Below, one piece after another: positions 1 to 53,687 of a stretch of DNA of 64,000 nucleotides. The DNA is from Nereocystis luetkeana (taxonomy: Eukaryota; Sar; Phaeophyceae; Laminariales; Laminariaceae): positions 9,722,458-9,786,457 of the forward strand of contig JARUPZ010000007.1 of the NCBI GenBank assembly GCA_031213475.1. Reading direction: 5' to 3'. The position numbers and the translations under genes were made by a program. Every line of letters begins with the position of its first letter. Position 1 is the first letter of the stretch. The notes under the pieces were generated by a model that was given only the letters and a program-made list of their open reading frames with translations, did no database searches and was not told the DNA's origin.

Positions 1-1000
1 GGTTAAGGTTGCCAATATCACCGAACAGCACTGTGTTTTCGGAAAGATCCGTTCGAGAGCCTTCCGATTCTATAACGTACCTGGTACGACCTTCAGCACC
101 CTTACCGTTGTTGAGAAAACTACCAACAACGAGGAATAGAAAGCAGAAACGATGACAACTACACTAAAGACGAAAGGCAAAACGTTAGGTTATCATACCG
201 TGTACCTGGTATGTTATAGACTGAAAAGACACGAGGTGCAAACACGGAACAAACAAACGACAAGAGGGCCCAAAAGGCTAGAAAGACACAACAAGACAAC
301 AATCAGCAGCAAGAAAACAGCACCGTGATGAGCATTTACGTCTTGGTACTACAGTCGTAGCATAGATAGTTTGTGCTTCACATATCCCACCGCCTTGGGG
401 GAGGCTGCCGACACCTATCACACACAGGAAGGTCCTTTTCGTTCCTCCTTTCTTTAGTACGCTCGGCGTAAATATAGCATACTCGTCCACGAGATGAGGG
501 CGGAGTCTTCGAAAACGCGTGACGTTCTTAAGGTTGGCCATTGAACACATCGAACAGTAGTGACCAGACGTATGCTACGACACGGATTGCAACCTGGAGC
601 ACAGTACCTTTTTTTGTTGAAGTTAGGGTACAAGTACCTTTTCCGTTGTAATTAGGAGTAATGTACCTTTCTGGTTGAAATGATGTGTACTGTACCCTGG
701 TTTGGCCAAACTATCAATGACCGACGGGGCTCCTAAACCGACAAGTCATCCTACAGCAATATACCACTGGAATACTTCTATTAATAGTGGCCTATGTTCT
801 ACTGCATTGCTCATCGTACGCCTAGCCCGTGGGGTGATTGTCCATCTCGGGTTGTTGTCCATCTCTTTCTTTTCTTGATACGATACGATACCTTGTCTTT
901 TCTCCTCTGTTTTTCCTACACGGGGCTTTTCTTTTCTTGAAACGATGCATCACGATATATACGTGTCTTTCCTTCATTTGTTTTTCTTTTGTTTTCTCAC

Positions 1001-1149
1001 CGCACGTCATACCGAAGTCGGCAACCTTGGCCGTCAAAGTCGTCTCGTCGCCTTCTCCCACGACGATGATGTTCCCCGCCTTGATGTCCCTGTGGACCTT
1101 CCCCTTGCCGTGCATGTGGCTCACTCCACACGCCGTCTCGTACAAGAGC
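1001..1149 (-). CDS. Kinase exon 6 (left copy): catalytic loop and DFG
   Basis: 149 nt after acceptor CCACTTTTATTGTAG, ending at donor TGCG/GTGAGA. It encodes LLYETACGVSHMHGKGKVHR, DIKAGNIIVVGEGDETTLTA and KVADFGMTC. HRDIKAGN supplies the catalytic Asp and Mg-binding Asn, and DFG the Mg-binding Asp. The leftover G plus AC from exon 7 makes Asp803. Confidence 0.9.
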
Positions 1150-4100
1150 CTACAATAAAAGTGGAGGGCAAGGGACACGGGCAGAGCAGGACCGGAGCAA
1201 GCACACCATAGCATGTGTCGGTCGGCAAAATAATAACTTTGATCAGAAGGCGGCGCGCAAGCGATTTTCGTGAAGAGTTTACCTGGTGCTAGATACCTGG
1301 TATGTATGTAGATTACCACACTTCGGACAGATCATGATCTGAAACGCATACCTGGTACCTTGGTAAGGTAGATCAACTTCATCTATTAATACTACTGTAG
1401 ATCCTACATTTCCATAGTTGCCGGATATGAAATGTTGCACAAAAAAAGCGATATCCTACAGATAGATCTCACCGGTCAACCATGTAGCACAAGAGTCATG
1501 CCATACACAGATCACACCCGGCAAGCGGGAGGATCTCAAAAGTAGATCATGCAAATCCTATAAATCAGGGACACACATACATACGTTTCTGCCCCCGCAA
1601 TATTGATGTACATCATGAGATGAGGATCTGATTCGATTCGTGCGATGGATGATACTGGAGACTCCAACATCGATGATCAGGCAAGGTCGCGGGGACACTG
1701 TTTCTCCAAAGTCGAGCTGAATACGAACATACAGCAGTTGACGCCCGCCACCCTCAAGAAATACCTGGTACCAAGTAGCGGAGTCAAGACATGTGGCTCG
1801 GCGATCACGAACAACCACAACGAATTTCGTGTGAGAAACACACATCAAGGTTGGGTGGGCAACAAGATAACAACCAGTCGCATAAAACACGGTGTGTAAG
1901 AAGCCGTTTCTCCAACGTCGAGCTGTATGAAATAATACGGGTACGATATGAAAACTTGTTTGGTGCGTCTGCCCGTTCGCCCCCTATTCCGCTCGCCCGA
2001 ACTTGCCCCCCCCCCCTGGCGTAGGGCCTTATTAGTGAGGAAACCTCAGTGCCAATGGAGATATGGGGCACAATCATACCATATCATATCATATTTAGTT
2101 GTATCACATCATAGCATAGCAAAGCATATCATACATTATCATATCATAAGTGGGAGCGTTTTTACTGTAGGAAACAAAATCCAAATACGTCAGCTGTGAC
2201 ACCAAAAAACAAAATCTAAAACCTTTGAAACTCTCGTCTTCGAAACGCAAGGTGCGTGCGTGTGTATGTGATATGTAGATACCAGGTATGACACTTCCGT
2301 TTCTTGGTACTCGACATTTACCGAACTCGCCTGATCTTAGCCGCCATGGATATATCAGCGTCATAAATGACGTCGAACATGTCCCTCGACCCAGCCTCCA
2401 TCATAATGGGCATCGTGGGGAGCGTGGGGTCCATAGCCACCACACGGATAATGTTCGCGTGATCCGACACACTTCGCGGCAAGGGGCAAGCCACGCAAGG
2501 CAACATCCATCGCACGAGCAGAAATGGGAAACGCGTACGTGAGGGCCGGCGTGGGCGTGGACGTGAGCGTGGCGGGTGGAGGCGGGAGTGGGGTTGGGGG
2601 TGGCGGTACGGGTGCCGGTGGAGGCGGGGGTCGGGGCGGGGGGGGGGTACAGGTGGGGGGCGTGTGCAAGAAAGAAGTGTCAATCAACATAGTGGGCGTT
2701 GCCTCGCGTCTCAACACAAAGTGTGTCGGACCACGCCAGCATCATCCGAGTGGTGGCCATGGACCACACGCTCCCTAGCATGCTTATCATGATAGAGGCT
2801 GGCTCCATATATATGCCAGCGTCACACATGATGTATGACGCTGGCATATCTATGGAGCCAGCCCCCATCATGATCGGCATGGTGGGGAGTGTGTGGTTCA
2901 TGGTCATCACTCGGTTGATGCTGGGGTGGTCCCACACGCTTTGTGGTAAGACGCTAGGGAACATCGCCCGTAGAGAAAGGGGAAATGCGCCAAGGCGCCA
3001 TAAACTGCGCATGTGGGGGCGGGGGTTACCGAGGTATGGATGGAGTTTGGGGGTGGAGGTGGGGGTAGGAGAAAGAAGTACTAGAGCTGTAACGTGGCAA
3101 TCTCCGCAAACCTCCGAGGTGCATTTCTACGTATCGGTGCTACTACTGCTGTATGGTACGTAGCATGGATGCTTTAATTTAGAGCGGTGGTCAGGACAGA
3201 AGTGTGGGTGGCGGGCGATCAACCACTACACTCCTTGCGCCGCAAAGACAATAAAAGGGTATTACGGTAGAGGGCGGTTGGTTGGGTGTGCTAATTACAT
3301 CACATTGAACAGGTTTCCACAAACAAGATGCGGTGATGATTTTACGACACCCACAATTATCCCTCCTTCACTCGTACGTACCACCCGACTTGTACCAACT
3401 ACACACCACCTTTCAGCAGCGCACACACTACTCACTGGTACCTCTCAACGAGAAATACCCTCGCAGGAAACGCATCCTGAAACTACAGTATAATTTGGGC
3501 TGCACGTCCAGCATTATCTGAGGCTCCTCAATTGATTGTACTGTATACTGTATGTAGCGTAGGAGCTCTCCTCCTCGACCAAAATCTGACGAAAACAAAT
3601 CAAGGTTGACAACCCCATGGCAAAAATCGGCAAGAAAGGCGCCGCGACAAATCTAAAACCATTAGGACAAAAATGGTCACCTCTGTCTTAGGGCGAGTCC
3701 AGAGACCGGCCACACACTAAACGTAGTGCGGAACACACTCTTAGCGAAAAAGAAGGTCTATAGCCTGGGCTGGTATCCCGTATTTTTTACGAACCCTCCC
3801 AAGGCAAACTGCAGTCCCGTTGTGGGGACGAAACACTCAAATTATGAGCAGTTCGTCCCCAAAACGGGACTGCAGTTTGCCTTAGAAGCGTTGATAGAGG
3901 GCCGGTATCCCGGCTTCTTAAATGACCGCCGGTAGCCCGGTTCCCCAACAGAGGGCCGGTTCTGATACAGCGTATTCTCGTGGGACGGCTTCGTCCGATG
4001 CCATATTTACTAACTCGAAAAAAGCAACAGCTGTGAGATAGAGGACTTCGTCGACACCCATCTCCGCAAGATGTGTGTGACACTTCGATCGTGCGTACGG

Positions 4101-15896: not shown

Positions 15897-15944
15897 CACT
15901 CCCCCCCCTCCCCCCATGATCAAACGGGGGGGGGGGGGGGGGTA
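15897..15944. repeat. C-tract/G-tract palindrome (left copy)
   Basis: Runs of C flank CATGATCAAACGG and then a run of about 18 G, giving a palindrome of homopolymers. Counterparts are at 25345-25383 and 60725-60766, with different tract lengths; in the right copy one tract is interrupted by an A. Confidence 0.85.
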
Positions 15945-16280: not shown

Positions 16281-16403
16281 AAAAGACGGGAAAATACAGT
16301 CTTCAGAACCAAATATGCCTATTGATGGATAAAATACTGGAATGTGTAGGTTTTTGAGCATATGATGGGTCCTGATTACTATGGTCCCCCGTAATAGTAG
16401 TAT
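16281..16403. mobile_element. MITE-family end, inside the inversion
   Basis: GGGTCCTGATTACTATGGTC followed by CCCCGTAATA matches the family terminus; I see no matching inverted end on the other side. Counterparts are near 24887-25010 and 60269-60392. Confidence 0.5.
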
Positions 16404-37535: not shown

Positions 37536-40500
37536 CTGCCCAAAGGAAAGTTTCACGTACAACATGTACCGGCACAACACGCAAGGCACAACAAGGTTAC
37601 TTACAAAAGGGCTAGTATGCGCGGAGGCATTTTTCCGACACCGAACGAATCATTTCTGAGGGGAAGAAAGCTACGGTGCCATTCTGGTGGGAAATACAGG
37701 GTGCACTTACATGGCCACAAAAAGGTCCGAATGCACTATTTTTTAACGATCAGACTGGAACTCGTGTACATGTACTCTGCATTTCCCGGCACAAATCAAT
37801 CGCCATCGCATTAGAACGGCCACAAGAAGAGCACAGCAGAACAGCTCACTATCAATGCCAATCACAATAATAGTGGCGAAACGAGAAATGTGACTCACGC
37901 GTGACTTGTTGGGCACCGAGTCGTCCAGCCTCTCCGGCAGCAGCATGATCTCGTCGAACGAGCCGTCATACATGCTCCTCTCCTTCACTGCGCACTGTTA
38001 AATTGTAGGAGTTGCAAGGCGGGTAGTATGGGTTCTGTGTGTTTTGTATGCGTTGTATGCGCGCAATGCGGGACTGTGTGTTTGTATGCATTGTATGCGC
38101 GTTGTATGAGAATGTGTGCTAGTATGCGTTGCATGCGCACAGTATGAGCACTGTGTGAGTTTTTATTAGTAATATGCCCGTAGTATGAGCACTGTGTGAG
38201 TTTTTATTAGTAATATGCTCGTAGCATGAGCACTGTGCGTGTCTGTGGGCATGCACGTAGTATGAGCATCTCATTAGAATCATAATCGACACAGAAAGGC
38301 AAGGAGCACAACGAAAAATGACGAGATAACGCAATAAATAGAAGATGAACAACGTGAAGGGGGGAGGGGGGGTGTACCCGATAGGAGTGATGGTACTCGA
38401 TATCATGCATGGCCGTAGTCGTATGGCCATAGACCCTCGCATCCTCATTGTGCCGAGGCGGAGCGCGTCGGGTGTTCACCGACCAGGCAGACATTGCTTG
38501 TACCAAGCGCGAAGCGCCGTGAGGGGGCGAGTCGCATGAAGGGTGAGCTGCATCCCACTAAAATCCGCTTGTGAGGCGGACTTGCATAATGACAGCTTCA
38601 ATTAGTTAAGTTAGTTTCCGGTGTCGCCACTTCCAGAGACAGCAATGGGAGTACTATGTAACTAACTGCCTCTTGGGTGCCTTACCATAAACACTACGTG
38701 ATACGACCATGCCCCGAATGCGGACTAAAAGTTATTTACCTCGCACTTATGATCACACTCGACCATCAGCTGTGACCGACCCACAAAAAACAAAAAGTAC
38801 CCTGGTTGTCTAGCTCACGTAGTGAGCGGCATGTTTTACAGTGTCGTTGCCAACCGACGCCAACCCAACCTGCAGTATACCTGGTATATAATAGGGGAGG
38901 GGGGGGGGGGGGCGTTCGTAGAAAGTGAGGGGGTGGAAGGGGAGAGAGGAGACCTGACTGACGGTTTCATCGAGAAATGTATTATGCGGCATGTAGACTA
39001 CTGTAAGTGCTGTACTCTGCACGACGAGAGCGCAAGAAACATCCTTAGGTTAATAAAGCGGGATGAACTTTAGTCCGGCAACGGAAGGACCATTGGGATA
39101 TGCATATTGTGACCCATACGGTCCTTACCTCTCAGCACATCATGATACCAGGTGGTAGAACTCACGTGCAACGAGTTCACGCGAACTAGACGCAGACCCG
39201 GCTAACTAGTATCATACCTACGTAAGGAAATGGAATATGCGATAACTTTTGGTTCCATATAAGCACAAAAAGAACCCGGGGATGATGCCAGGGGATGGAG
39301 GGCTATATGTAAATTCGGTCGATATTTCGATATATCGAGACGTGTCTTCCTTCTTTTTGGTTTCCCTCGGCTTTTCTCTTCCTTCGGGGAATGTTTATGA
39401 GTGGTCAACGTTCAAGATATTGTAGTCCAGAAGGCTACTGTAGTCCAATAGGCTAATGTAGTCCAATATTATACTGTGGTCCAATAGGATACCGTGGTCT
39501 GTTAATAGCCCAATAGTGTTTCTTCTTCTCTCGGGGAATGCAGGAGTGGTCAACGTTGAAGCTTTTGTAGTCCAAAAGGCTACTGTGGTCCAATAGGCTA
39601 CTGTAGTAGTTCAACAGGCTACTGTGGTCTAATCCAAGAGGTTTTCTTCTTCTTTCGGGGAATGTTTATGAGTGGTCACCGTTTCAGCTCATCATTATGC
39701 TGCACATTTTAGGATGGCAAACGCAACAAATAAAAAGTCTTCCTAATAGTACATAAATACGACACGTGATGCAAATAAATAAAGTAACAAAACTTCCTGC
39801 TAGGTACACCATATCCAAAACTGCCAGTATATATGCTTGAAATAAATACTAGACATACCTGAAAGTGGAAGATCTCTGACGCGTCCCCCCCATCATTGTA
39901 TATTTCTTGTAGTTCCATCGGTTCTTGGTCTATCATGAGGAGCTGCTCACATTAACATTGATATTACATAAAATAGCGGTCGCGCCAGAGAGCACGGGGA
40001 AGGGAAGGGAAGGGAAGGGAAGGGAAGGGAAGGGAAGGGAAGGGAAGGGAAGGGAAGGGAAGGGAAGGGAAGGGAAGGGAAGGGAAGGGAAGGGAAGGGA
40101 AGGGATGGGAAGGGAAGGGAAGGGAAGGGAAGGGAAGGGAAGGGAAGGGAAGGGAAGGGAAGGGAAGGGAAGGGAAGGGAAGGGAAGGGAAGGGAAGGGA
40201 AGGGAAGGGAAGGGAAGGGAAGGGAAGGGAAGGGAAGGGAAGGGAAGGGAAGGGAAGGGAAGGGAAGGGAAGGGAAGGGAAGGGAAGGGAAGGGAAGGGA
40301 AGGGAAGGGAAGGGAAGGGAAGGGAAGGGAAGGGAAGGGAAGGGAAGGGAAGGGAAGGGAAGGGAAGGGAAGGGAAGGGAAGGGAAGGGAAGGAAAGGGA
40401 AGGGAAGGGAAGGAAACGTGAAACAGACGAATGTCAACATATTCTTGTTTTCATGCCAGACGACAATCAATGCGCAGTGTAAGCTTTGACGTCGATCACT

Positions 40501-43500
40501 CGCACAAAAAAGCGGGCATATCGACCACGAAGGGAAACCTTAAACCTTATTCGCGCATCGGACAGAGCATGTCCTAAACCATCATGTACAGACAGACCAT
40601 CTACAGAAACATCTACAGATACATCGTCTACAGGTATGTCATCTACATAAAGTTCCTCTACAGATAGATCCTAAGCCGCCGTACCGTGTGAGTTGTTGCA
40701 CAGGATATGTATATAGCGCAGATCCAATCCAGGAAACACGTTCTCGATCATACCGGAATACGGCTCCCATTCGGTAACATGAGCTAGATCATATAGATCA
40801 TACAGATCATACAGATCATTCATCTATTTGCCCTGAAATATCTCGATCACGAAGTAGGAATCGCCGATCTGTCCGACGTGTGAGCTTAGTGGACACGAAA
40901 ATCTTGTTTCACTTTCTAAAAGTTGCCTTCTACCTCCCAATTTCTCGAGTGCTTTTTACCTCCCGATTTCTTAATTATCACGGGCTACCAATTTCTTAAG
41001 CTGGTTTATAACTCCCAATTTCTTGAGTTTGTTTCCCATTCCCGACTTCTTAAGCTGCATACTAACTCCCAATTTCTCAAGTTGAATTACTAACTCTCGA
41101 TTTCTCAAAGGTGCTTACCAACTGCCAACTTCTTAAGTTTCGTTCTAACTCCCAAATTCTTAGGTTACTAACTCCCGATGTCTTACGTCTTTGTCTCACT
41201 CCCAATCTATCACGTTGCTTTCTCGCACTGCACTGCTGTACAATTGTTCCTTCTTAATATTTTCGTAGAATTAATGGTTTCGTAGAACGTGTATGTCGTG
41301 CGTGTCGTATCCAGTAAGAGACATGGCATTGCGTTGTCTACTCTGCTTACGGCCAACGTAGTATCTCTGTGGCGTATGTTTGTGACCACTGAACTTGAAG
41401 CTCTCTAGGATTGAAGAATAGGCACGGACACTGGTTCTGCTGTATGTCGACGGGTAGAAAGAACGGTTTTATGTTAAGAACACACACCCAGATCTAGACT
41501 ACAGCAGCAGCAAGTGCTCTTTCTACTGCAGTCTACCTGGTATACTTGTATATTGCTGGACTGTTGCTCTCACCGTGTGCGCGAACATGTTGTTCTCCCT
41601 TAGCTCCCGCCGAAAGAAAACGTAGACCATCACAACGGCGAACGAAAAGACGTCGCCATCAGGGCCGGCATGAATTGCGCTGTTCAGATTTTCCACCGGG
41701 ATGTACCCGGGGCTCCCCGTTCTTGCCTCAGTATTCGCGCCGATGTCTATCAAAGTACAAGGTATTGCACAAGGTGTTTGCGCGGTATTTTGAGGCAGGG
41801 AATCACGGGGGGGGCAGGCGCATGCATACATCATGCGGAAGGGGGTATCAGGGCGTAGGGGATCGGGGTCACGCTCGTTACTGCTGTGTGCTGTTGAAAA
41901 CCTGCAGGACAGGGATAGGAGGTTGGGGGATCACGCCTTTCTCTTCTTGTTCGTTGCTGTTGATGTCTGGTGTGACATTTACCTTTGGTATGTTCAGTAT
42001 GTTTTCCTGATTTGTTCTCTCTTTAGTCTATACGTGTGCACGGAATATCAGCCTATTGATAGCCGAGTATCTTTTGTCTTTGAAAATAGTATAGTCATTC
42101 TGTCAATCTTCTTTTCCTTGCTCTTCTTGCTTGGAGCAGACTATTACCTGGTAAGTCCTACTATTCATCGTAGAAACGCCAATCAACAGTTTTTTCTAAT
42201 CGCGCGCCATGCCGAATTCGCCAACCTTGGCAGTCAACATTGTCTCTTTCCCTCCTACTAACCAGTTAAGGACTGCACTCCCAACCTGGGGACAAATCAC
42301 TTGTATTTAGAGTCCGATATATGCGTATAGTACAGTGCAGTAATAAAAGGGGTGGCTATACCGACACTGATGCTGCCCGCTTTTACATCCCTGTGGGCCT
42401 TTCCCTTGGCGTGCATGTGGTTCACCCCGCATGCGGTCTCGTGCAGGAGTCTGCAAGAGGGCACTGCACTTCTCTGTCCGTGCCTCTTTCGCAGGCTCGT
42501 GCACGAGGGCGCATAATGCGCGCTGAGCCGCATGCACGACAACAAGAGAAGGCCACAGGGACATAGAAGCGCGCGTGTGTGCGTGTCGCGACATCACTGT
42601 TGTAGAAGGCGGCGACGAAACAACTTTTGACAGCTAAGGTCAAGGTCGCCGACTTCTTCGGCACAGCGTGCGAGCGATGAGAAAACAAATCACGCGCTTC
42701 AGAAGTGGCATCCCTTGTCGAACCCAACAAAAAAACAACAAAAAAGGCAGGGGGGGGGAAGGCAAATCATGACAAAGACCCCAAGACCAAAGATAAAGAC
42801 TGCTGGTATAGACTAGTTTTCTATCATACTGTGTACCAAGTATAAACAACCTAAGAAGGCAAACGACACCAAGCTGGACAGACGAAAGACAAAGCACAAG
42901 ATACCAAAAAGACAAAAGACACGCAAGACAACAAGCAACAGCGACACCGACAAGACACCAAAACGTTGCGACCACCCGACCCCCGACCCCTGCCCTCGAG
43001 TCTTCAACCATAGAAGCACCGGAAAACGTTTTTTCTCTATGCTCATCTAAAATAACAGAAGGCGTGACCTCCCATCCCTGATCGTCTGGATACCCCCATC
43101 CGCATGTATGCATGCGCCTGCACCCCCCGTGATTCCCTGCCTCAAAATGCCGCGCAAACCTTGTGCAATACCTTGTACTTTGATAGACATCGGCGCGAAT
43201 ACAGAGGCAAGAACGGGGAGCCGCAGGTACATCGCGGTGGAAAATCTGAACAGCGCGGTCGAGGCCGGCCCCGATGGCGACGTCTTTTAGTTCGCCGTTG
43301 TGATGGTCTACGTTTCTTTCGGCCGGAGCCCAGGGAGACCAGCGTGTTGGTATTAACTCTCAACATGTTGTTCTCCCTCAGCTTCGGCCGGAAGCAAACG
43401 TAGACCATGAGAACGGTGGACGAAAAGACGTCGCCATCCGGACTAGCCTCGATCGCGCTGTTGAGATTTTCCACCGGGAGGTACCCGGAGCATCCCGCGC

Positions 43501-46500
43501 TCGCTTCCGTTCTCGCTCCGACGTCTATCAAAGTACAAGGTGTTATACAAGGTTTGCTGCGGCATTTTGAGGCCGGGAGACACGGGGGGGCGCAGGCGCA
43601 CGTATACATGCGGATGAGGTAGGGGATCGGGGATGGGGGTTGGGGGGTCGCGCCTTCTGTAGTCATAGAGGAGCATATAAAAAAATAATCCGCTACTACT
43701 GCGTGAGTTAGCTTGAAATCTTCAGGACAGGGATCGGGGGTCGGGGGTCACGCTTTTTTCTTCGTCGTTGCCGTTGCTCCCGTTGTTGCTGTTGTTGTCA
43801 CTATCCTGCCTGTCTTCTGCGTATCTTGCCTTCTAGTCTCTTTGTCTTTTTTTCTGCCCAGCTTTTTACCGTTTGTCTTCTAAGCTTCTACTTGGTACAC
43901 GGTGGGATAGACTACGTACATAGTCTTTCATCGTTTGTTTTCAGATTTGATGTCAATAATTTTGGCATTTTCCCCCAACACTTGTTGTTCTTGTGGTTGG
44001 GTTCGATAGGGGATGCCCCTTCTGCAATGTCTCATCTTGATTTTCTCATCGCACGCCATGGCAAAGAAATCAGCAAAACCTAAACCTTGGCAGTCAAAGT
44101 TGTCCCGTCCCCCTCCTCCACCTACAATGATGTCGCCCTCTTTCGCATCCCTGCGGGCCTTTCCCTTGGCTTGCACGCGGCTCAGCCCGCTTGTGGCCTC
44201 GTGCTGGGGTCCCCAAGAGGCATGGCAGACTGCCTAGAGGCAGGGCAGACTGCCTCTTGAGGGCTCCTGCTTGAGGCCGCACGCGAGGTGAGCCACATGC
44301 ACGCTCAGGAAAAAACGTATAGGGACGTGGAAGCAGGCAACGTCATTATCGTCGGAGAAGGAGGCGAGTGACAGCGTTGACTGCCAACGCTACACCGACT
44401 TCTTCGGCCTGGCGTGCGATGACGAAAACAAATAAAATCGATAAGACACGTTACACTACTCGTACAGCACATTTCAATGGTTTCCCTGATTACGTTAGCG
44501 TGATACTTTCTGTCCGACGGGACTCCCTTTACCCAAAACTCGTGGGAGTTCTATTCTTATTTTTGCCAAATTGCAGTGTTCGTGCACCTAGGCTATAGGG
44601 CTATTCATTCATCAACCATTGACTGGACTGTCATTTTTGGTAAAGTCAGTTTATGGGTGACTTCGAAATAAGAGCTCCTTAAGGGCAAGTGAGGAGCCTC
44701 ACAAAAAAATGGTGCACCTCTGCTCTACCTATGACCTCAGAACCGTTGGCTTCTCGCAGGGGTGTGTGCGATCGTTTTTCAGCGCTCTATCGCCAGAACG
44801 GGAAGGTTAAGGTTGCCAATATCACCGAACAGCACTGTGTTTTCGGAAAGATCCGTTCGAGAGCCTTCCGATTCTATAACGTACCTGGTACGACCTTCAG
44901 CACCCTTACCGTAGTTGAGAAAACTACCAACAACGAGGAATAGAAGGCAGAAACGATGACAACTACACTAAAGACGAAAGGCAAAACGTTAGGCTATCAT
45001 ACCGTGTACCTAGTATGTTACAGACTGAAAAGACACGAGGTACAAACACGGAACAAACAAACGTAAAGAGGGCCCAAAAGGCTAAAAAGACACAACACGA
45101 CAACAATCAGCAGCAAGAAAACAGCACCGTGATGAGCATTTACGTCTTGGTACTACAGTCGTAGCATAGATAGTTTGTGCTTCACATATCCCACCGCCTT
45201 GAGGGAGGCTGCCGACACCTACCACACACAGGAAGGTCCTTTTCGTTGCTCCTTTCTTTAGTACGCTCGGCGTAAATATAGCATACTCGTCCACGAGATG
45301 AGGGCGGAGTCTTCGAAAACGCGTGACGTTCTTAAGGTTGGCCATTGAACACATTGAACAGTAGTGACCAGACGTATGCTACGACAAGGATTGCAACATG
45401 GAGCACAGTACCGTTTTTTGTTGAATTTAGGGTACAAGTACCTTTTTCGTTATAATTAGGAGTGATGTACCTTTTTCTGGTTGAAATGATGTGTACTGTA
45501 CCCTGGTTTGGCCTAACTATTAATGACCGACGGGGCTCCTAAACCGATAAATCATCCTACAGCAATATACCACTGGAATACTTTTATTAATAGTGTCCTA
45601 TGTTCTACTGCATTGCTCATTGTACGCCTAGCCCGTGGGGTGATTGTCCATCTCGGGTTGTTGTCCATCTCTTTTTTTTCTTGATACGATACGATACCTT
45701 GTCTTTTCTTCTCTGTTTTTCCTACACGGGGCTTTTCTTTTCTTAAAACGATGCATCACGATATATACGTGTCTTTCCTTCATTTTTTTGTTCTTTTGTT
45801 TTCTCACCGCACGTCATACCGAAGTCGGCAACCTTGGCCGTCAAAGTCGTCTCGTCGCCTTCTCCCACGACGATGATGTTCCCCGCCTTGATGTCCCTGT
45901 GGACCTTCCCCTTGCCGTGCATGTGGCTCACCCCACACGCCGTCTCGTACAAGAGCCTACAATAAAAGTGGAGGGCAAGGGACACGGGCAGAGCAGGACC
46001 AGAGCAAGCACACCATAGCATGTGTCGGTCGGAAAAATAATAACTTTGATCAGAAGGCGGCGCGCAAGCGATTTTCGTGAAGAGTTTACCTGGTGCTAGA
46101 TACCTGGTATGTATGTAGATTACCACACTTCGAACAGATCATGATCTGAAACACATACCTGGTACCTTGGTAAGGTAGATCAACTTCATCATCTATTAAT
46201 ACTACTGTAGATCCTACATTTCCATAGTTGCCGGATATGAAATGTTGCACAAAAATAGCGATATCCTACAGATAGATCTCACCGGTCAACCATGTAGCAC
46301 AAGAGTCATGCCATACACAGATCACACCCGGCAAGCGGGAGGATCTCAAAAGTAGATCATGCAAATCCTATAAATCAGGGACACACATACATACGTTTCT
46401 GCCCCCGCAATATTGATGTACATCATGAGATGAGGATCTGATTCGATTCGTGCGATGGATGATACTGGAGACTCCAACATCGATGATCAGGCAAGGTCGC

Positions 46501-49500
46501 GGGGACACTGTTTCTCCAAAGTCGAGCTGAATACGAACATACAGCAGTTGACGCCCGCCACCCTCAAGAAATACCTGGTACCAAGTAGCGGAGTCAAGAC
46601 ATGTGGCTCGGCGATCACGAACAACCACAACGAATTTCGTGTGAGAAACACACATCAAGGTTGGGTGGGCAACAAGATAACAACCAGTCGCATAAAACAC
46701 GGTGTGTAAGAAGCCGTTTCTCCAACGTCGAGCTGTATGAAATAATACGGGTACAATATGAAAACTTGTTTGTTGCGTCTGCCCGTTCGCCCCCTATTCC
46801 GCTCGCCCGAACTTGCCCCCCCCCCCTGGCGTAGGGCCTTAGTAATGAGGAAACCTCAGTGCCAATGGAAATATGGGGCACAATCATACCATATCATATC
46901 ATATTTAGTTGTATCACATCATGGCATAGCAAAGCATATCATACATTATCATATCATAAGTGGGAGCGTTTTTACTGTAGGAAACAAAACCCAAATACGT
47001 CAGCTGTGACACCAAAAAACAAAATCTAAAACCTTTGATACTCTCGTCTTCGAAACGCAAGGTGCGTGCGTGTGTATGTGATATGTAGATACCAGGTATG
47101 ACACTTCCGTTTCTTGGTACTCGACATCTAGCCAACTCGCCTGATCTTAGCCGCCATGGATATATCAGCGTCATAAATGACGTCGAACATGTCCCTCGAC
47201 CCAGCCTCCATCATAATGGGCATCGTGGGGAGCGTGGGGTCCATAGCCACCACACGGATAATGTTCGCGTGATCCGACACACTTCGCGGCAAGGGGCAAG
47301 CCACGCAAGGCAACATCCATCGCACGAGCAGAAATGGGAAACGCGTACGTGAGGGCCGGCGTGGGCGTGGACGTGAGCGTGGCGGGTGGAGGCGGGAGTG
47401 GGGTTGGGGGTGGCGGTACGGGTGCCGGTGGAGGCGGGGGTCGGGGCGGGGGGGGGGTACAGGTGGGGGGCGTGTGCAAGAAAGAAGTGTCAATCAACAT
47501 AGTGGGCGTTGCCTCGCGTCTCAACACAAAGTGTGTCGGACCACGCCAGCATCATCCGAGTGGTGGCCATGGACCACACGCTCCCTAGCATGCTTATCAT
47601 GATAGAGGCTGGCTCCATATATATGCCAGCGTCACACATGATGTATGACGCTGGCATATCTATGGAGCCAGCCCCCATCATGATCGGCATGGTGGGGAGT
47701 GTGTGGTTCATGGTCATCACTCGGTTGATGCTGGGGTGGCCCCACACGCTTTGTGGTAAGACGCTAGGGAACATCGCCCGTAGAGAAAGGGGAAATGCGC
47801 CAAGGCGCCATAAACTGCGCATGTGGGGGCGGGGGTTACCGAGGTATGGATGGAGTTTGGGGGTGGAGGTGGGGGTAGGAGAAAGAAGTACTAGAGCTGT
47901 AACGTGGCAATCTCCGCAAACCTCCGAGGTGCATTTCTACGTATCGGTGCTACTACTGCTGTATGGTACGTAGCATGGATGCTTTAATTTAGAGCGGTGG
48001 TCAGGACAGAACGCGTGGGTGGGGGGCGATCAACCACTACACTCCTTGCGCCGCAAAGACAATAAAAGGGTATTACGGCAGAGGGCGGTTGGTTGGGTGT
48101 GCTGATTACATCACATTGAACAGGTTTCCACAAACAAGATGCGGTGATGATTTTACGACACCCACAATCATCCCTCCTTCACTCGTACGTACCACCCGAC
48201 TTTTACCAACTACACACCACCTTTCAGCAGCACACACACTACTCACTGGTACCTCTCAACGAGAAATACCCTCGCAGGAAACGCATCCTGAAACTACAGT
48301 ATAATTTCAGGGCTGCACGTCCAACATTATCTGAGGCTCCTCAATTGATTGTACTGTATACTGTATGTAGCGTAGGAGCTCTCCTCCTCGACCAAAATCT
48401 GACGAAAACAAATCAAGGTTGACAACCCCATGGCAAAAATCGGCAAGAAAGGCGCCGCGACAAATCTAAAACCATTAGGCCAAAAATGGTCACCTCTGTC
48501 TTAGGGCGAGTCCAGAGACCGGCCACACACTAAACGTAGTGCGGAACACACTCTTAGCGAAAAAGAAGGTCTATAGCCTGGGCTGGTATCCCGTATTTTT
48601 TACGAACCCTCCCAAGGCAAACTGCAGTCCCGTTGTGGGGACGAAACACTCAAATTATGAGCAGTTCGTCCCCAAAACGGGACTACAGTTTGCCTTAGAA
48701 GCGTTGATAGAGGGCCGGTATTCCGGCGTCTTAAATGACCGCCGGTAGCCCGGTTCCCCAACAGAGGGCCGGTTCTGTTACAGCGTATTCTCGTGGGACG
48801 GCTTCGTCCGATGCCATATTTACTAACTCGAAAAAAACAACAGCTGTGAGATAGAGGACTTCGTCGACACCCATCTCCGCAAGATGTGTGTGACACTTCG
48901 ATCGTGCGTACGGCGGGTTTCGTATGGCCTCATGCAGGAACTACAGTCCGCATACGTATGAGGAAGACAAAATCTGAAGCTGCAGAATTCCAAGGAGTGG
49001 GAGTGTCTATCTATAGCACGCGCACTAGACGTGGCATCCTGTGAACGCAATTTCGTTCTCATGCATATTACCATGCACGCATAAGCATACACACGCAACA
49101 GACTGGCATTGCTGCATTCGTCAAATACTTGAGGGGGAGACATGACACGTACCAAATACCAGCAGCTGCATCGATATTCTCACCTCAGTATTGTCTCCAT
49201 TTCGTTGCGGGCGGACTGCTGTTCTTCCTCACCGGCCTCCTATAGCAGTAAAGGAACGAAATAGCGAGAAACGTGGGGGGGCTATAAACGTCAAATCAGA
49301 GGCAAGACACACGCGGCATACCGCTAATACTTCACAGAACACAAAACAATATAACCTTCTATTAATAATCTATACCTGGTATATTTAATACCAAGTATAA
49401 ATACATACACGAGTGTACGTAGAAACAACGAAACCCTCACCTCGATTAGCTCCTTCACAGCATAGCGCCCGAATTCGTGCAGAACGAGGGAAACGCGTCC

Positions 49501-52500
49501 GAACTGCCCCTCGCCGAGGACCTCGTGCCATATCAGGTCCACGTTATCCTCGCACCGCGAAAGCGAGCAGTTCCGCGCGAGGTACTCCCCGGGGGCGGCC
49601 ACCTGCGGGTCGTCGAGGCCGCGCAGAATCTCGACAAGCCGGGTAGTCATGCCTAAATGCTCTTCTTTAGTCGATATCCTCACGGCGGAGACCGGCAGCG
49701 CCAAGGAGTTGCCCAGCCCCTCCTCCTCCTCCTCCTCCTCCTCTCCCTCGTCCTCGCCCTCGTCTTCCTCTTCACCTTCGCTCGATTGAAAAAGGAAGCT
49801 GTCAGCCCCCGAACTGCCGGACCGAGCACAGCCGCCACCGCCACTGTCGCCGCCGCCGCTGCCGCCGCCGTGGACACCAAAGACACCGTCGCTTTCGTAC
49901 GCGACGATCTCGGGTTCTGCTCCGATAACCTCGTCTGCTAGACTGATGGAGTGAACTACCGCCGCCGAAGACGCCGCCGAAGCCCACGACGACGGCGGGA
50001 ACGCGACCCCTAGGCTGAGCGGCGAGCTGCTTCTGCTGCTTCTGCTGCTGCTGCTGCCGCTGCTGCTGTTGCTGGACCCAATCTGCGAGAGGAAAAGCCC
50101 CAGCTCCTTCTCCTCTTCCTCATGCCCCTCCTGTTTCTCCTCGCTTACCAAGGACAGAGTCTGTAAAAACGTTGACCTCGCGGAAAACACCGGCGTCGAC
50201 GAAGCAATAGCGGGTGAGAAACCTGCCAGGGTGGAAAACTGCGCCATATTGTCGCTGTCCATCATCATTTCTGGCGCTAGCCCTGCCAGGATGGAGGACT
50301 CCACCGTGCAGTTAGTGTTAGTCGTTTCTGACGCAAATCCTGCCGGGATAAAGGACCCCGCCATGTCACCGTAGTTGTTAGTCGTTGCGGCAGGCAAACC
50401 CCCTGCTAGGATGGAGGACCCCGCCATGTCGCAACAGTTGCCCGTCGGTTCCGGCAAAGAAACTCCTGCCAGGATGGAGGACTCCGTGTCCATGTCGTTG
50501 CTGTTGTTGTCCGTCGCCGTCTCTGCTTGGGCGCGCCCGGTATTCTCTTCCTTGGCCTTGAAGCTGTTGTGCGAGGCACCAGCGGCGGCAGCGTTGACCG
50601 CGGATGGCGACGGAAGCAACAAGCACATGTCTTCTCCTTGTTGTTGTTGTTGTTGTTCTTCTTCTTCTATCACAGGGCGTGTACGGCTGCTCTGGCTGGA
50701 GGGGCGGGCCACGTGATCGTCCAAGAAACGCTGTGGGGCGAAAAGCAAAAGGGGGTGGGAAGTGTCGAATCCGAATGGAGAGGAGAGGAGAGGAGAGGAG
50801 AGGAGAAGAGAGAAAAGAAAACGTACGCGCTGAAGCCGGCAGCAATGGAGTACAACATGATCGCCTCGATTTTGGAGGTACATTCACAGACTACTGCAGA
50901 CTAAACTGGACTCTATGCTTACTGTAGTTAGGAATACGATTTCCAATTGCGTACATGTATGGGGTGTGAGTTGTATGCACTCTCCCCCTCTAGATCTGCC
51001 TCCACGTTGTGTACGGAACAATCTACTTCGGTTTGTGTGGGATAAGGTTTGCAGCAGTGACTTACATACAGTACAACAACACACACACACCTGCGTTTCC
51101 GCCGGCATGTCACAATCCGCGATGCTCCCAAAGCAACAACCCTCCGCCTCGTCAGCACGAGCGGAGTCTTCATCTTCGTCCAAAGCGAGGGACGAACAAG
51201 GCGTTTTCCACCACGGCTCGCGGAAGCCTCGCACGCTGTTCTGAAGCACCTCGTCGACGCTCCGAGAGGAGGAAGGGCGGGGCCGGGGAGAGGCGAGGCT
51301 GGGTGCGTGAGGGGAGAGGGGGCTGGGCTGGAGGCTAGCCCCCCCAGTCTCGGCGTACTCGGTGCCTGCTCCGGGGTGGCTGCTGAGCCCGAACACCATC
51401 GTCTTCTCCCTGCGCTTCGCTCGAGACCCCGTCGATGTCCGCAGGCTCTGCCTGATGGTGACCGACGTAGCATACTTGAGGGAAACAAACTGCTCCTCGG
51501 ACGTGTTGATCAAGCATGGTTGGCTCTCGAGATCATCGAGAAGACCGGGGTCGAGCTCTCCTCCTCCTGCACACGATGATCCAGCGTCGCTAAAGTGACC
51601 GCTGCCGCCCTTCTTCTTTTTCCTGTTCTTTCTCGTGTTCTTGTTCTTCAGTGAAAAAAAGCTGTACCCACCAATCGTTATTCCCTCCACTCCACGTCGG
51701 CCGGAGACCCACCACCTCCAAAAAGCCAGGAGAGCAAAGAAGATGAGCAGGAAACAGTTGGGAACCTACCAGGTGCATGGTATTGTGCCACACATACAGA
51801 CAGCCGAAGGAAACAGAGAAGGGCGCAATGGAAACGTTGAGTGAGTGAGTGAGTGCGTGAGTGAGTGAATGAGTGAGTGAGTGAGTGAATGAGTGAGTGA
51901 GTGAGTGAGTGAGTGAGTGAATGAGTGAGTGAGTGAGTGAGCGAGTGTCGCGGTGGTCATGAACGCCCGCGTGTGGACATTTGGACATACATGTCTGCTG
52001 TATTTCATCGTGAATCCGAGTGCACTACGTACAGTAGGATAAGTCCGCAAAAACACACACATGTGAGCATGCATGCCATCGAATATACAATATACCAACA
52101 TGCTACGAAAGACGCGGAACGTTTGTGTGCTATTCATATTATTACAGTATCTATATACTTCGAAGTACAAACGAAGCCAATATATTGCGGGAGGAATTTC
52201 TGTATTATGGACGTTACTCTAAACCCGTGTTTTCCCCCAGTAACGACTTACCGGTGGGAACGCAAGGCGAAGATCCTCTTTAGACCCCTTACATACAACT
52301 TTTTTTGTTGTTGCGAAATGTTTGGCGGTTTCCTGAACGAAAAATGAGGCATTCTTGTTGGGGTGGTTGAACACACGCGTCCGTGCGCGAGGCAAACTAG
52401 CTGGTGCTCACGGCGCGATTCAATGGCGCCATAAAAAATGCGGTCAGTCGTATAGGGTGAACTAAATATTTTTTGCTGAGTGCCCGTCGAACCTCATTTC

Positions 52501-53213
52501 ATCGCCCGCTGTTCTGGTATATCAGCAGTCTCTACAATAAAAAGCTATTCATAGAGTACCACTCGATAACGCTCACAACTACAAAATTACGGCTCCTATA
52601 TACATAAATGCCTGCATTTCGCATGATCGGCTAGACCATCTTCAGAGCACAGAGAAAAACTGTGCATCGAAGAAGTTCACGTCACTGCCCACTAAAATCG
52701 CAGTATTATACCGGTGTATCGTAGAGAGCTACTATTGATAATCCCTTTCGGCCTTGAGGACTGCACTCCCATCGTGGGGACAAAACCCTTGCAATAAGAG
52801 TCAGATTTAGGTACATGAGCAGCACTGCAGCACTAAACGCACCCGTCGAGAATGTGCAAGGCAATCAGTATAGACCGAAACATAACGACCGTTCGGTAAT
52901 TGATATTCATACCAAACAGTCTCCACATGTGTGGACAAAGTGATACATAATTACGTCTCGTACATGCGTATGTAAATTTTCGGATGAAAAGCACGAACAC
53001 GCATATTATATTAGCACAGAAAAGCAACCATCGAACGGGGGCGTAACAATCACGCTTCAGCGTGGACACAGCTGGTCATCAGACCTGTGCTTCCTATACG
53101 TGAAGGGCAGCACCAGTTGCCCTCACCTGCCGGTTAGAAGAGAAGCTCCCGAAGCGGGACGGGATCGAGTCCTCCTCAAGCCGCGCCTGGCGAGACCTGT
53201 CGAAGGCCAGCAT
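37431..53213 (-). CDS. Membrane-anchored protein kinase, nine exons, right copy (probably damaged at exon 5)
   Basis: Joining 53213-53127, 51765-51091, 50730-49441, 49239-49184, 47281-47132, 45956-45808, 41746-41574, 37994-37899 and 37535-37431 gives 2781 nt, or 926 residues plus TGA. Seen in order: hydrophobic segment (about 33-48), Lys-rich and Ser/Pro-rich linker, five imperfect SSILAG repeats, Ser and Glu tracts, Gly loop GEGQFGRV (660-667), Lys680, alpha-C Glu697 or 699, HRDIKAGN (772-779), DFG (797-799), PVE (819-821), Asp834 in DGDVFSF, Arg908 in RPT. Every catalytic residue of a Ser/Thr-type kinase is present. Split codons at exon joins 4/5, 5/6 and 6/7 fit. The substrate is unknown. 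The exon 5 donor is lost in this copy, so its transcript would probably read into TAG. The exon 1-2 join is the weakest. The kinase family is not resolved. Confidence 0.75.
37899..37994 (-). CDS. Kinase exon 8: C-lobe subdomain X
   Basis: 32 codons (CAVKERSMYDGSFDEIMLLP then ERLDDSVPNKSR) between acceptor CAATTTAACAG and donor CGC/GTGAGT, phase 0 on both sides. This is the variable segment between helix F and the RP motif. The preceding 3.6-kb intron contains a GGGAA microsatellite and several minisatellites. Confidence 0.85.
38040..38265. repeat. Tandem repeat around GTATGAGCACTGTGTG
   Basis: Two near-perfect copies of a 45-bp unit (GTATGAGCACTGTGTGAGTT plus TTTATTAGTAATATG) follow several shorter TTGTATGCGC copies. 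It starts about 45 bp upstream of kinase exon 8 and lies in intron 7. Confidence 0.8.
39378..39690. repeat. Compound minisatellite: 18-bp GTAGTCCAATAGGCTACT within 130-145 bp units
   Basis: The words TTCGGGGAATG...AGTGGTCA recur at about 39384, 39533 and 39657, and the intervals are filled with 18-bp copies of GTAGTCCAATAGGCTACT. Located in intron 7. Confidence 0.8.
40000..40411. repeat. GGGAA pentanucleotide microsatellite, about 80 units
   Basis: An almost pure purine strand of GGGAA for about 410 bp with single-base variants (GGGAT near 40104, GGAAA near 40393). It lies in intron 7 of the kinase (between 41573 and 37995). The 185- and 168-residue ORFs across it are repeat artefacts. Such a mirror-type homopurine tract can form triplex DNA. 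Confidence 0.95.
40915..41215. repeat. Degenerate 25-30 bp minisatellite, CTCCCAATTTCTTAAG
   Basis: About ten imperfect copies of AACTCCCAATTTCTTAAGTT separated by variable 5-10 bp, in intron 7 of the kinase. The upstream stretch (40590-40830) has shorter tandem words, ACATCTACAGAT and GATCATACA. Confidence 0.8.
41574..41746 (-). CDS. Kinase exon 7: activation segment and helix F
   Basis: 173 nt between acceptor CTTTGATAG and donor ACACG/GTGAGAG. It encodes (D)IGANTEARTGSPGYIPVENL, NSAIHAGPDGDVFSFAVVMV and YVFFRRELRENNMFAHT. GSPGYIPVE corresponds to GTxxYxAPE with PVE in place of APE; DGDVFSF holds the helix-F Asp. Of the three exon 7 copies at 41.5-43.6 kb this is the only one with open frame, acceptor and donor all intact, and the nearest to exon 8. 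Confidence 0.85.
42201..42450 (-). pseudogene. Degenerate exon 6 copy a, interrupted by an insertion
   Basis: After acceptor-like CCCTCTTGCAG the minus strand reads LLHETACGVNHMHAKGKAHR and DVKAGSISVG. Homology then stops for about 95 bp (roughly 42260-42355) and resumes as MLTAKVGEFGMAR. The inserted piece contains a dispersed motif (AAGGACTGCACTCCCA...) also seen at 3801 and 7985. The donor GTGAG has become ATTAG. It pairs with the intact exon 7 at 41574-41746 as unit a. Confidence 0.75.
42495..42671 (+). pseudogene. Degenerate exon 6 copy b, plus strand
   Basis: Following CTCTTTCGCAG, the plus strand carries frameshifted remnants of exon 6 (EPHARQQEKATGT, then LLTAKVKVADFFGTACER). It stands head-to-head with copy a about 45 bp away. 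Multiple frameshifts and loss of the GT donor mark it as dead. Confidence 0.75.
43187..43345 (+). pseudogene. Degenerate exon 7 copy b, plus strand
   Basis: After TACTTTGATAG the plus strand reads IGANTEARTGSRRYIAVENL and NSAVEAGPDGDVF, then an in-frame TAG where exon 7 has Ser. GSPGYIPVE has become GSRRYIAVE. It belongs with exon 6 copy b as an inverted E6-E7 unit and meets copy c tail-to-tail near 43345. Confidence 0.8.
43352..43524 (-). pseudogene. Exon 7 copy c, minus strand, donor lost
   Basis: Acceptor CTTTGATAG is kept and the frame is open: VGARTEASAGCSGYLPVENL, NSAIEASPDGDVFSSTVLMV, YVCFRPKLRENNML. The exon 7 donor (ACACG/GTGAGAG) is replaced by GAGAGTTAATACC at the palindrome centre. 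Its phase would fit exon 6, so it could be a relic of an alternative exon, but no usable donor is seen. Confidence 0.75.
44050..44208 (-). pseudogene. Degenerate exon 6 copy c, minus strand
   Basis: The minus strand reads MQAKGKARRDAKEGDIIVGG, then FDCQGLGFADFFAMACDEK. The catalytic HRD has become RRD and the conserved Asn (AGN) is Asp. The donor TGCG/GTGAG reads TGCG/ATGAG. It forms unit c with exon 7 copy c. Confidence 0.75.
44262..44420 (+). pseudogene. Degenerate exon 6 copy d, plus strand
   Basis: The plus strand reads EVSHMHAQEKTYRDVEAGNV and IIVGEGGE, then a stop and frameshifted remnants of the DFG region ending GCGTGCGATGACG. It is head-to-head with copy c across about 55 bp. No exon 7 follows it, so the array ends here. 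Confidence 0.7.
44689..44943 (+). CDS. Possible plus-strand exon with stop, unrecognised
   Basis: An acceptor-like CTTCTCGCAG (about 44751-44760) precedes GVCDRFSALYRQNGKVKVAN, then ITEQHCVFGKIRSRAFRFYN and a stop after TTNNEE. The last part is kept at 1-139, where the one difference I saw (GTT/GTA) is synonymous. Composition looks protein-like but no family is recognised, and it lies antisense in the kinase intron. Confidence 0.2.
   Translation: MRSLTKKWCTSALPMTSEPLASRRGVCDRFSALYRQNGKVKVANITEQHCVFGKIRSRAFRFYNVPGTTFSTLTVVEKTTNNEE
45808..45956 (-). CDS. Kinase exon 6 (right copy): catalytic loop and DFG
   Basis: Same protein as 1001-1149, with both splice sites intact. It is the only copy of exon 6 in this gene with a GT donor. 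Four degenerate copies of exon 6 lie in the 4.06-kb intron downstream and all have lost the donor. The frame joins exon 7 at 41746. Confidence 0.9.
47132..47281 (-). CDS. Kinase exon 5 (right copy) with destroyed splice donor
   Basis: Colinear with 2322-2471, but the bases around the donor differ: left copy TTCGGTAAATG, right copy TTGGCTAGATG. The invariant GT has become CT, and unspliced reading gives GTT GGC TAG at once. No other donor that would keep phase with exon 6 is visible nearby. The kinase would be cut before helix E unless an unusual site is used. Confidence 0.75.
47532..47639 (+). pseudogene. Decoy copy of kinase exon 5, plus strand (right copy)
   Basis: Counterpart of 2722-2829 in intron 4 of the right-hand gene, with the same sequence as far as I compared. 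Confidence 0.8.
47641..47748 (-). pseudogene. Decoy copy of kinase exon 5, minus strand (right copy)
   Basis: Counterpart of 2831-2938. One visible change (GTCCC to GGCCC on the plus strand) turns VWDH into VWGH, consistent with no constraint. Confidence 0.8.
48614..48696. repeat. 83-bp fold-back (right copy), one stem mismatch
   Basis: As 3801-3883, but CTGCAG in the right arm is CTACAG, leaving a mismatch in the stem. Confidence 0.85.
49184..49239 (-). CDS. Kinase exon 4 (right copy): alpha-C helix micro-exon
   Basis: Same 56 nt and splice sites as 4371-4426. The next intron (49183-47282, about 1.9 kb) contains the inverted pair of decoy exon 5 copies and a G-rich tract. Confidence 0.8.
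49441..50730 (-). CDS. Kinase exon 3 (right copy)
   Basis: Same length (430 codons) and splice sites as the left copy. Amino-acid differences cluster in the SSILAG repeats (for example SSVLAG/SSILAG, SSILAG/FSTLAG, GSDNMA/DSDNMA), while the Gly loop and Lys region are identical. Confidence 0.85.
50777..50808. repeat. GGAGA microsatellite (right copy), shortened
   Basis: About six units against about fourteen in the left copy. The flanking bases also differ (GAATCCG/AAGTCCG). The exon 3 acceptor itself is unchanged. Confidence 0.9.
51091..51765 (-). CDS. Kinase exon 2 (right copy)
   Basis: Encodes the same protein as 6318-6992, 225 codons in phase 0 on both sides. The 360-bp intron that follows ends in the short GGAGA microsatellite (50777-50808), which acts as the pyrimidine-rich stretch before exon 3. 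Confidence 0.6.
51838..51945. repeat. GTGA microsatellite (right copy)
   Basis: Same repeat, same interruptions and same length as 7064-7172, unlike the GGAGA tract, which changed length. Confidence 0.9.
53127..53213 (-). CDS. Kinase exon 1 (right copy)
   Basis: Appears identical to 8354-8440: 29 residues from ATG to a CAG/GTGAGG donor. The 1.36-kb intron that follows carries a GTGA microsatellite at 51838-51945. Confidence 0.45.
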
Positions 53214-53687
53214 ATACGGGAACATTTACATTTGCATTTACATGATATCATATGTGCGTGTTTCAACAGCAGCAGCAGGAGATCAGAAAAAGAGAGCCAA
53301 TTGAGGATAATACCGATCGCCGAACGCCAAGCAAATCGTCCTCAGAGCAGTCCATCGTGCGGACGCGTTTTTCATGACACCCCGATCGAGGAGAGACAAC
53401 GTCTATATAGCGCTGCTGCTGCACTGAGTCACGTTTAATCATCATCGTTTCGAGCCTAATTCTAGCAGCACCTCCCCCCCCCCCGACGACGCGTGCGTGT
53501 TTGGAAATCGAATAACACAGAAGAGACGTACCGGGTACGTCTGTTTGTGGTTCGAATTCCACAGCACGCTCCACGCACATACAACTCGCCCCGATCGAAC
53601 ACAGGGCGACGTCTGTCTGTATTATGCAAGAGCTTCTGCCCTAGGGCGGCAAAGAGTGCCGTTCTTCAAACGTGGTGATTCTGGGGT

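Follow-up and report, generated by a model that had tools for sequence, protein, structure and literature searches.

Alternating inverted copies of kinase exons 6 and 7 within an intron of their own gene in Nereocystis luetkeana

The window analysed here is a stretch of 64,000 nt from the brown alga Nereocystis luetkeana (contig JARUPZ010000007.1 of assembly GCA_031213475.1, positions 9,722,458-9,786,457, forward strand). It carries a protein kinase gene: a query of hand-joined exons matches PF00069 with an E-value of 1.7e-18, and the Pkinase domain contains the HRD and DFG motifs. The gene is tandemly duplicated, and self-comparison places its left tandem copy inside the window as well. Live exon 6 is bounded by TTGTAG and GTGAG, live exon 7 by GATAG and GTGAG (Table 1).

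Intron 6 of this gene holds four extra copies of exon 6 and two of exon 7 in alternating orientation, the intron shared by the pair included. The array reads E7- E6- / E6+ E7+ / E7- E6- / E6+ (partial), followed by live E6-, and it ends inside the host gene. Searching the window with nhmmer profiles recovers the exon 6 copies at E-values of 3e-40 to 4e-47 and the exon 7 copies at 3e-62 to 2e-65; these profiles were built from the array copies themselves, so independent support comes from protein-level hits and from self-comparison of the window, a check proposed from the outset. The original prediction had placed extra exons 6 at 42201-42450(-), 42495-42671(+), 44050-44208(-) and 44262-44420(+), and exons 7 at 41574-41746(-), 43187-43345(+) and 43352-43524(-). 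Each is recovered near these places by nhmmer, and the predicted layout, units of about 0.9 kb in the order minus, plus, minus, plus (partial), joined head-to-head and tail-to-tail, holds by nhmmer and self-comparison. Unit U4, described as partial, does carry its plus-strand exon 6, and to this we add the 5' part of the intron; past it, no exon 7 relic matches above shuffled sequences. Matches between array intron and the intron adjoining live exon 6 have scores reached by 11, 18 and 60 of 200 shuffles and are not counted.

Table 1 Features of the kinase locus, in window coordinates.
Feature	Position	Strand	Evidence
Live exon 6, left tandem gene copy	992..1158	-	nhmmer profile
Exon-5 palindrome, left tandem gene copy	2698..2962	.	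self-comparison
Live exon 7 (U1)	41574..41746 (nhmmer match 41564-41760)	-	profile, protein-level matches, splice sites
Intron 6, array host	41747..45807	-	sequence, splice sites
Intron copy of U1	41747..42191 (nhmmer match to 42200)	-	nhmmer
Dead exon 6 of U1, AT donor, ~100 bp insertion	42192..42460	-	nhmmer, alignment
Dead exon 6 of U2, head-to-head with U1	42486..42685	+	nhmmer, alignment
Intron copy of U2	42686..43172 (nhmmer match 42677-43186)	+	nhmmer
Dead exon 7 of U2, with a stop and a deletion of 1 bp, joined tail-to-tail to U3	43173..43346 (nhmmer match to 43352)	+	nhmmer, protein-level match, alignment
Dead exon 7 of U3, open frame and acceptor but no donor	43347..43538	-	nhmmer, alignment
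Intron copy of U3	43539..44040 (nhmmer match 43525-44049)	-	nhmmer
Dead exon 6 of U3	44041..44220	-	nhmmer, alignment
Dead exon 6 of U4, head-to-head with U3	44253..44427	+	nhmmer, alignment
Remnant, 5' part of U4 intron	44920..45136 (weak partial nhmmer match 44989-45136)	+	nhmmer, shuffle-tested alignment
Live exon 6 (U0), HRD and DFG motifs	45808..45956 (nhmmer match 45799-45965)	-	profile, protein-level matches, splice sites
Live exon 5 region	47172..47319	-	protein-level matches, sequence comparison
Inverted pair of partial exon 5 copies, the second such exon pair in the gene, tail-to-tail about a centre at 47640	47508..47772	.	self-comparison, palindrome scan
Upstream kinase exon region with P-loop, ...YAVKELIE then GTGAG donor	49441..50883	-	sequence

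Ordinary tandem exon duplication repeats the same exons within a gene; in contrast, self-comparison and nhmmer show that the copies do not share one orientation, and the array is alternating and apparently non-coding. The copies carry the kinase's own intron, and an origin from unrelated kinases, which would have overturned the initial reading, is not borne out.

In the alignments, all four extra exons 6 have AT in place of the GT donor, just as the loss of every GT had been claimed; the window gene and its paralogs L014, L015, L016 and L017 all have GT at live exon 6. This one change, common to all four copies, implies that an already-dead exon was amplified. By eye, a TTC-type insertion is also common to the exons 6 of U2, U3 and U4. 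The pattern of exon 6 sites is star-like, with 57 of 84 variable ungapped columns unique to one sequence. The exon 6 copy of U1 is long because of its insertion, which over 56 bp matches 7981-8036 at 82%. Only the terminal exon 7 keeps frame, acceptor and donor, as first stated; exon 7 of U3 retains the first two. Along with the exon 7 copies A2, A3 and A5 it still reads open, a state disfavoured by pure neutral decay, and a third-position excess in exon 6 could mark past coding constraint on the copies.

The original prediction included neither the tandem gene duplication nor the exon-5 palindrome at 47508-47772. The window contains six palindromic centres, all in the two copies of the kinase gene, and 40 kb of background contain ten, in six of the ten stretches sampled. 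Palindromes are therefore common in this genome, and we dropped the idea that the kinase gene is enriched for them as such.

A genome search with exon 6 hits six C7 tandem gene copies, which differ by about 1%, and four unplaced contigs, and all of these contain the array; the unplaced contigs match copies C or E at 100% of aligned columns and are probably redundant. Copy A has one more inverted dimer than the other tandem copies, a direct repeat with a period of about 1.8 kb, and its live exon 7 is open, with acceptor and donor present. The paralogs L014 and L015 possess only a head-to-head exon 6 pair, and L016 an inverted relic of the exon 6 3' end (score 65 against a shuffle mean of 24; none of 300 shuffles as high). 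The distant L017 gives no clear trace: queries from three other loci find no inverted exon 6, and its own exon 6 gives a gappy alignment scoring 39, which none of 300 shuffles reached but which we do not regard as clear. Since paralogs show one, the initial head-to-head step may predate this gene. The U4 tail resembles the inverted arm of L014 (score 76 against a shuffle maximum of 47), which is not decisive because independent inversions of the same intron also look alike; the junctions differ, and we do not claim the pair as a single ancestral event in the C7 paralogs. Within one genome, loci with no clear trace, with a relic, with a head-to-head pair, with three and a half units and with five and a half units may record successive stages of an inverted exon array growing inside an intron, the exons of the gene itself remaining open. 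The course of inverted amplification at sub-kilobase scale becomes a testable question.

Judging from sequence comparison, this is probably a non-spliced array of pseudo-exons, grown by inverted duplication, with template switching as the putative means, and reshaped by conversion. An exon 6 copy already deprived of its donor (GT to AT) would have been duplicated in inverted orientation, and growth would then have gone by whole inverted dimers, E6-intron-E7 plus its mirror image, a polymerase presumably having changed template to its own complementary strand close to where exon 6 starts and exon 7 ends. The latest step would be the direct repeat of an inverted dimer in copy A, so ordinary unequal exchange also seems to contribute. 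Later, the copies would have decayed largely neutrally while still exchanging sequence among themselves. Copy order and orientation agree with the original claim of repeated inverted duplication of one exon pair, and the inverted junctions are compatible with its suggested template switching at foldbacks. Nearby inverted copies are joined across short spacers: innermost stems of at least 6 bp leave 2 to 54 nt, a geometry only loosely foldback-like. No microhomology signature was established at the junctions. Short palindromes are visible by eye at unit ends, CTCGTGCACGAG in U2 and AACATGTT in live exon 7. Replication template switching, as described in the MMBIR model (PMC2621351) and for short-range switches in great apes (PMC7954356), likewise yields nearby inverted templated copies and potential hairpins. 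In the gold-standard great-ape set, templated length has a median of 12 and a maximum of 128 (PMC7954356), whereas the kinase units measure about 0.9 kb, are repeated and closely track exon boundaries.

Ordinary stepwise rearrangement, in which tandem duplication, small inversions and unequal crossing-over of direct dimers act without any replication template switching, is a possible but rather unlikely route to the same structure. It accommodates the direct repeat in copy A and the one that self-comparison detects between U1 and U3 at 1.78 kb. However, every head-to-head or tail-to-tail junction would require a separate inversion with nearly coincident ends, and the star-like exon 6 pattern suggests that the copies arose close in time.

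Very strong folds are predicted for RNA of the U2-U3 pair (-444.7 kcal/mol, z -28, 20 shuffles) and of the exon-5 palindrome (-210.2 kcal/mol, z -20, 200 shuffles). In the predicted MFE structure, U3 pairs with U2 and exon 6 of U4 with the dead exon 6 of U1, and live exon 7 forms no pairs with other units. A pseudo-exon array of the preferred kind may be tolerated for this reason, the extra units pairing together and leaving live exon 7 free. By prediction the transcript is long and self-complementary, as at a miRNA or hairpin-siRNA locus, and every tandem copy found retains the array; we nevertheless doubt that it is a selected hairpin source of small RNAs, in which intronic dsRNA from the inverted exons would be processed and target the kinase family. 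One study (PMC4513859) places 75% of Ectocarpus miRNA loci within protein-coding genes and suggests intronic hairpins as a source, but reports no evidence that these miRNAs derive from protein-coding genes. The units are about 64-92% identical, not near-perfect, and retention across gene copies that are so similar requires no selection. Regular mismatch spacing in the hairpins, a sign of selection, was rejected (p 0.06 and 0.83). Allen et al. 2004 reportedly proposed an inverted duplication origin for plant miRNA genes. There likewise, a gene's own exons, copied in inverted orientation, can fold into a long hairpin; the kinase array differs in being multi-unit and inside the same gene's intron, its hairpin being predicted from sequence. 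Whether intronic exon hairpins feed brown-algal small-RNA pathways becomes testable here.

Identity between units is uneven: U1 and U2 share 89% in exon 7, 92% in the adjoining 3' intron, 72% in exon 6 and 64% over the whole intron. In copy A, ~600 bp (3452-4051) across the exon 6/exon 6 centre are 90-100% identical to the other such stretch, against 70% immediately either side. A sharp 47%-to-96% step between U1 and U2 proved alignment-dependent; once realigned, the 47% stretch sits within a 92% region. Conversion between array copies is likely on these comparisons: they seem to exchange sequence among themselves and, possibly on one occasion, with a live exon in copy B, a sister gene. In copy B, live exon 7 contains a 16-bp patch equal to the inverted dead U2 copy at all six differing sites, which are contiguous among the discriminating sites and flanked by live-type sites at 41644 and 41699; it changes Ile-His to Val-Glu. 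None of 20000 random placements of the 36 differences put six within 16 bp. The dead exon 7 of U2 (43173..43346) is the likely donor in what was apparently one exchange into live exon 7; the patch might instead stem from a polishing error, and an older state could account for four of its six bases. Differences also cluster outside exon 7: two further groups of four lie among the arrays of different copies (45790-45781 and 44513-44498).

An archive of exon variants would mark a live exon with a templated patch that matches one of the silent copies. It is improbable that the intron is a store of silent mirror-image catalytic exons, homogenised by conversion and able to rewrite short stretches of the live exon, as a self-amplifying archive built from palindromes; that the inverted dead copies act as conversion donors diversifying live exon 7 seems a shade less probable still. 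The copy B patch, with its two amino-acid changes, speaks for it. Against it, this is the single patch among placed gene copies, and live exon 6 (at most one base from the window copy in 10 copies) and live exon 5 (identical in 8) show no other; one patch beside near-invariant live exons 5 and 6 gives no sign of sustained diversification. Editing of live exons by dead inverted ones can at least be put to the test at this locus.

A foldback or MITE-type transposon with captured kinase exons is highly improbable. The genome is rich in palindromes, and the one at 48655 in the kinase gene has a core also found in the background; yet the units keep exon-intron-exon order, and all 21 exon 6 and 32 exon 7 matches listed (the latter without exon 7 of L014-L017) fall in kinase loci or contigs, with no dispersed copy outside kinase loci among them. 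An assembly artefact is unlikely to the point of being hardly credible: near-identical tandem genes and palindromes are difficult to assemble and the unplaced contigs duplicate copies C or E, but the array stands in every tandem copy found, where an artefact would have undone the original reading, units differ by about 8-36%, more than read-error chimeras would, the structure of copy A is distinct, and the database proteins P0009 (U3/U2 junction) and P0015 (exon-5 palindrome) derive from a 13,124-base contig, while no contig of listed length among the exon 6 matches is of that size. P0012 and P0014 point to additional head-to-head pairs of exon 6.

Among the matches listed for PMC papers under CC0, CC BY or CC BY-SA, no title concerns alternating inverted exon arrays in an intron. 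Exon shuffling of LRR exons in brown-algal ROCO genes (PMC11378527) has in common with the array the brown algae, repeated exons per gene and a proposed diversification; the words 'inverted' and 'orientation' are absent from the text searched. There, the LRR exons are described as coding, in phase, 72 bp long and subject to alternative splicing (PMC11378527), whereas the kinase copies are devoid of donors and alternate in orientation.

In gene order, intron 6 of the minus-strand kinase gene (45807-41747) reads live exon 6 (E6), then the units U4 (partial), U3, U2 and U1, the last including the live exon 7 (E7). Every copy was located by profiles with E-values far below chance, and the alternating E6/E7 copies of the original prediction were confirmed independently of them, by comparing both the region and the whole window with themselves. 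Against the live exons, identity is 69-78% for the extra E6 copies and, for E7, 89% in U2 and 77% in U3; no exon 7 was detected beyond U4. This is a real, old pseudo-exon array, made by inverted duplication of the gene's own exons inside its intron; apparently it is still being reshaped.

The window occupies positions 9722458-9786457 of contig C7 in a 465-Mb genome. Joining the minus-strand P-loop exon and exons 6 and 7 by hand gives a query that hits PF00069 at 1.7e-18. The two species-labelled database relatives both come from brown algae: P0002 from Hapterophycus canaliculatus and P0007 from Laminaria digitata. A weak match (E 0.97) at 49236-49183 suggests a further kinase exon; exon numbers are those of the original prediction, and the gene model is partial. 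Between exons 7 and 8, a GGGAA pentamer is repeated 83 times (39997-40413).

Features of the kinase gene, its exon array and the TGGGGAC-type palindromes (L030, L031 and L034 are random background stretches)
Feature	Position	Strand	Description
Exon 5	near 47280-47134	-	matches P0002 and P0007
Exon 6	45808-45956	-	matches P0002 and P0007
Exon 7	41574-41746	-	matches P0002 and P0007
Exon 8	near 39942	-	matches P0002 and P0007
Exon 9	near 37997-37893	-	matches P0002 and P0007
U4			inverted E6 and 5' part of intron
U3			E6-intron-E7, gene orientation
U2			inverted E7-intron-E6
U1			dead E6, intron, live E7
TGGGGAC-type core palindrome	48601-48705; 3788-3892		window
TGGGGAC-type core palindrome	L030 1267; L031 2586; L034 667		background

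The array is present in all six tandem gene copies found on C7 (A to F, 34-45 kb apart) and in four of four unplaced contigs. The latter are 100% identical to copy C or E over the aligned array columns and probably redundant with the placed copies, so that six arrays count as independent. Over the array, copies B to F share 98.5-99.9% identity. Copy A (locus L009) has one inverted dimer more; judged by E6, its units A1 and A3 are nearest to U1, A2 and A4 to U2, A5 to U3 and A6 to U4. The window contains copy E and part of copy D, and its stretches 1-15091 and 44805-59884 are direct copies, 99% identical, belonging to this cluster. A 1.65-kb segment (98.5-99.8% identical) recurs at 24545-26194 and 59927-61574 and, inverted relative to these, at 15091-16740.

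A dispersed element is disfavoured, because all listed genome matches (at least 21 for E6 and at least 32 for E7, the latter without the diverged exon 7 of the paralogous kinase loci L014-L017) fall in kinase loci or contigs. By the same criterion, 10 palindromic centres occur in 40 kb of background from ten contigs, versus 6 in the window. Palindromic repeats are thus abundant in this genome, and what distinguishes the kinase gene is its inverted exons, not its palindromes. By eye, a TGGGGAC-type core is present in three of the ten background palindromes and at 48655; a 30-bp part of this palindrome resembles 7987-8016 (83%) and, weakly, the U1 exon 6 insertion (77%, E 0.3). Perfect or near-perfect background palindromes (44-45 of 45) lie at L029 1403, L033 1855 and L034 1890.

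Head-to-head pairs also occur in paralogs. L014 and L015, 0.4 Mb distant on C7, each contain live E6, a head-to-head pair (an inverted E6 and a second one), part of the intron and one E7. L016 has plain E6-E7 order, yet its intron contains about 53 bp of E6 3'-end sequence as an inverted relic (score 65 against a shuffle mean of 24, reached by 0 of 300 shuffles); L017, on C20, shows no clear inverted-E6 relic. Among the matches listed for 20 loci compared, P0012 and P0014, from database contigs, show no more than 79% identity, along part of the protein; as we read their peptides, they would run through other head-to-head E6 pairs with junctions within the exon. Intron 6 of L014 holds a further self-inverted stretch (6474-6584), resembling sequence just past exon 7. 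A second inverted exon pair, the exon-5 palindrome, is found in all eight gene copies examined, and one exon 5 was found in each of the four paralogs. The inverted joins most likely originated by template switching; later growth of the array would have proceeded through unequal exchange. Among the matches listed from the open-licence literature, no title describes such an array.

The donor position reads AT in all four extra E6 copies, bearing out the predicted loss of GT, which live E6 retains in the window gene and in L014, L015, L016 and L017. Being common to all four, the loss is older than the amplification. An inserted TTC-type triplet, seen by eye, is common to U2, U3 and U4 and absent from U1 and live E6. 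In 57 of the 84 variable ungapped E6 columns a single sequence stands apart, 13 columns are two-versus-three splits and 14 show more than two states; the copies thus seem to have separated within a short time and to have diverged afterwards. Differences from live E6 at codon positions 1/2/3 number 6/9/18 in U1, 11/11/20 in U2, 11/13/19 in U3 and 15/9/22 in U4. We read this pattern as the probable result of near-neutral decay in the copies combined with synonymous substitution along the live branch; past coding constraint on the copies may be an alternative source. Several dead E7 copies still have an open reading frame.

Predicted folding energies are -444.7 kcal/mol for the U2|U3 segment (z -28, 20 shuffles) and -210.2 kcal/mol for the exon-5 palindrome (z -20, 200 shuffles). 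The minimum-energy structure predicted for the 2.9-kb transcript has U2 base-paired to U3 and the dead exon 6 of U1 base-paired to exon 6 of U4. Live exon 7 (173 bases) then has 60 bases unpaired, 61 paired with its own unit's intron, 44 paired within the exon and 8 paired outside the named regions. Folded pairwise alone, U2 with the live E7 block is stronger (-509) than U2 with U3 (-431), so that the result for live exon 7 is a prediction on nested folding only.

Sequence exchange has probably left patches of high identity. Between U1 and U2, identity reaches 89% in E7 and 92% in the 3' intron next to it, against 72% in E6 and 64% along the entire intron; U3 is without this excess. Copy A has two blocks over an E6|E6 centre that agree at 90-100% along some 600 bp (3452-4051 in one of them); identity is 70% directly on either side and 55-98% in the rest. 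Six sites within 16 bp (41661-41676) set the live exon 7 of copy B apart from that of the eight other non-A copies, of which four are probably redundant. Copies B and C differ by 36 substitutions over the aligned array, and 0 of 20000 random placements gave six in 16 bp; clusters of four differences occur twice elsewhere among the copies. U2 has the patch base at all six sites, and the discriminating sites on either side, 41644 and 41699, are live-type; a seventh difference, at 41786, has the U2 state, also that of the other non-live copies. The simplest reading, one among others, is that U2 was the donor: outside the patch, base 41675 is found in U2 of copies B to F alone, and 41673 in none but dead copies. 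The remaining four bases are present in copy A's live exon 7 as well, and copy B may have retained them from an older state. Polishing with misplaced short reads could also have produced the patch. Its effect is to change Ile-His to Val-Glu.
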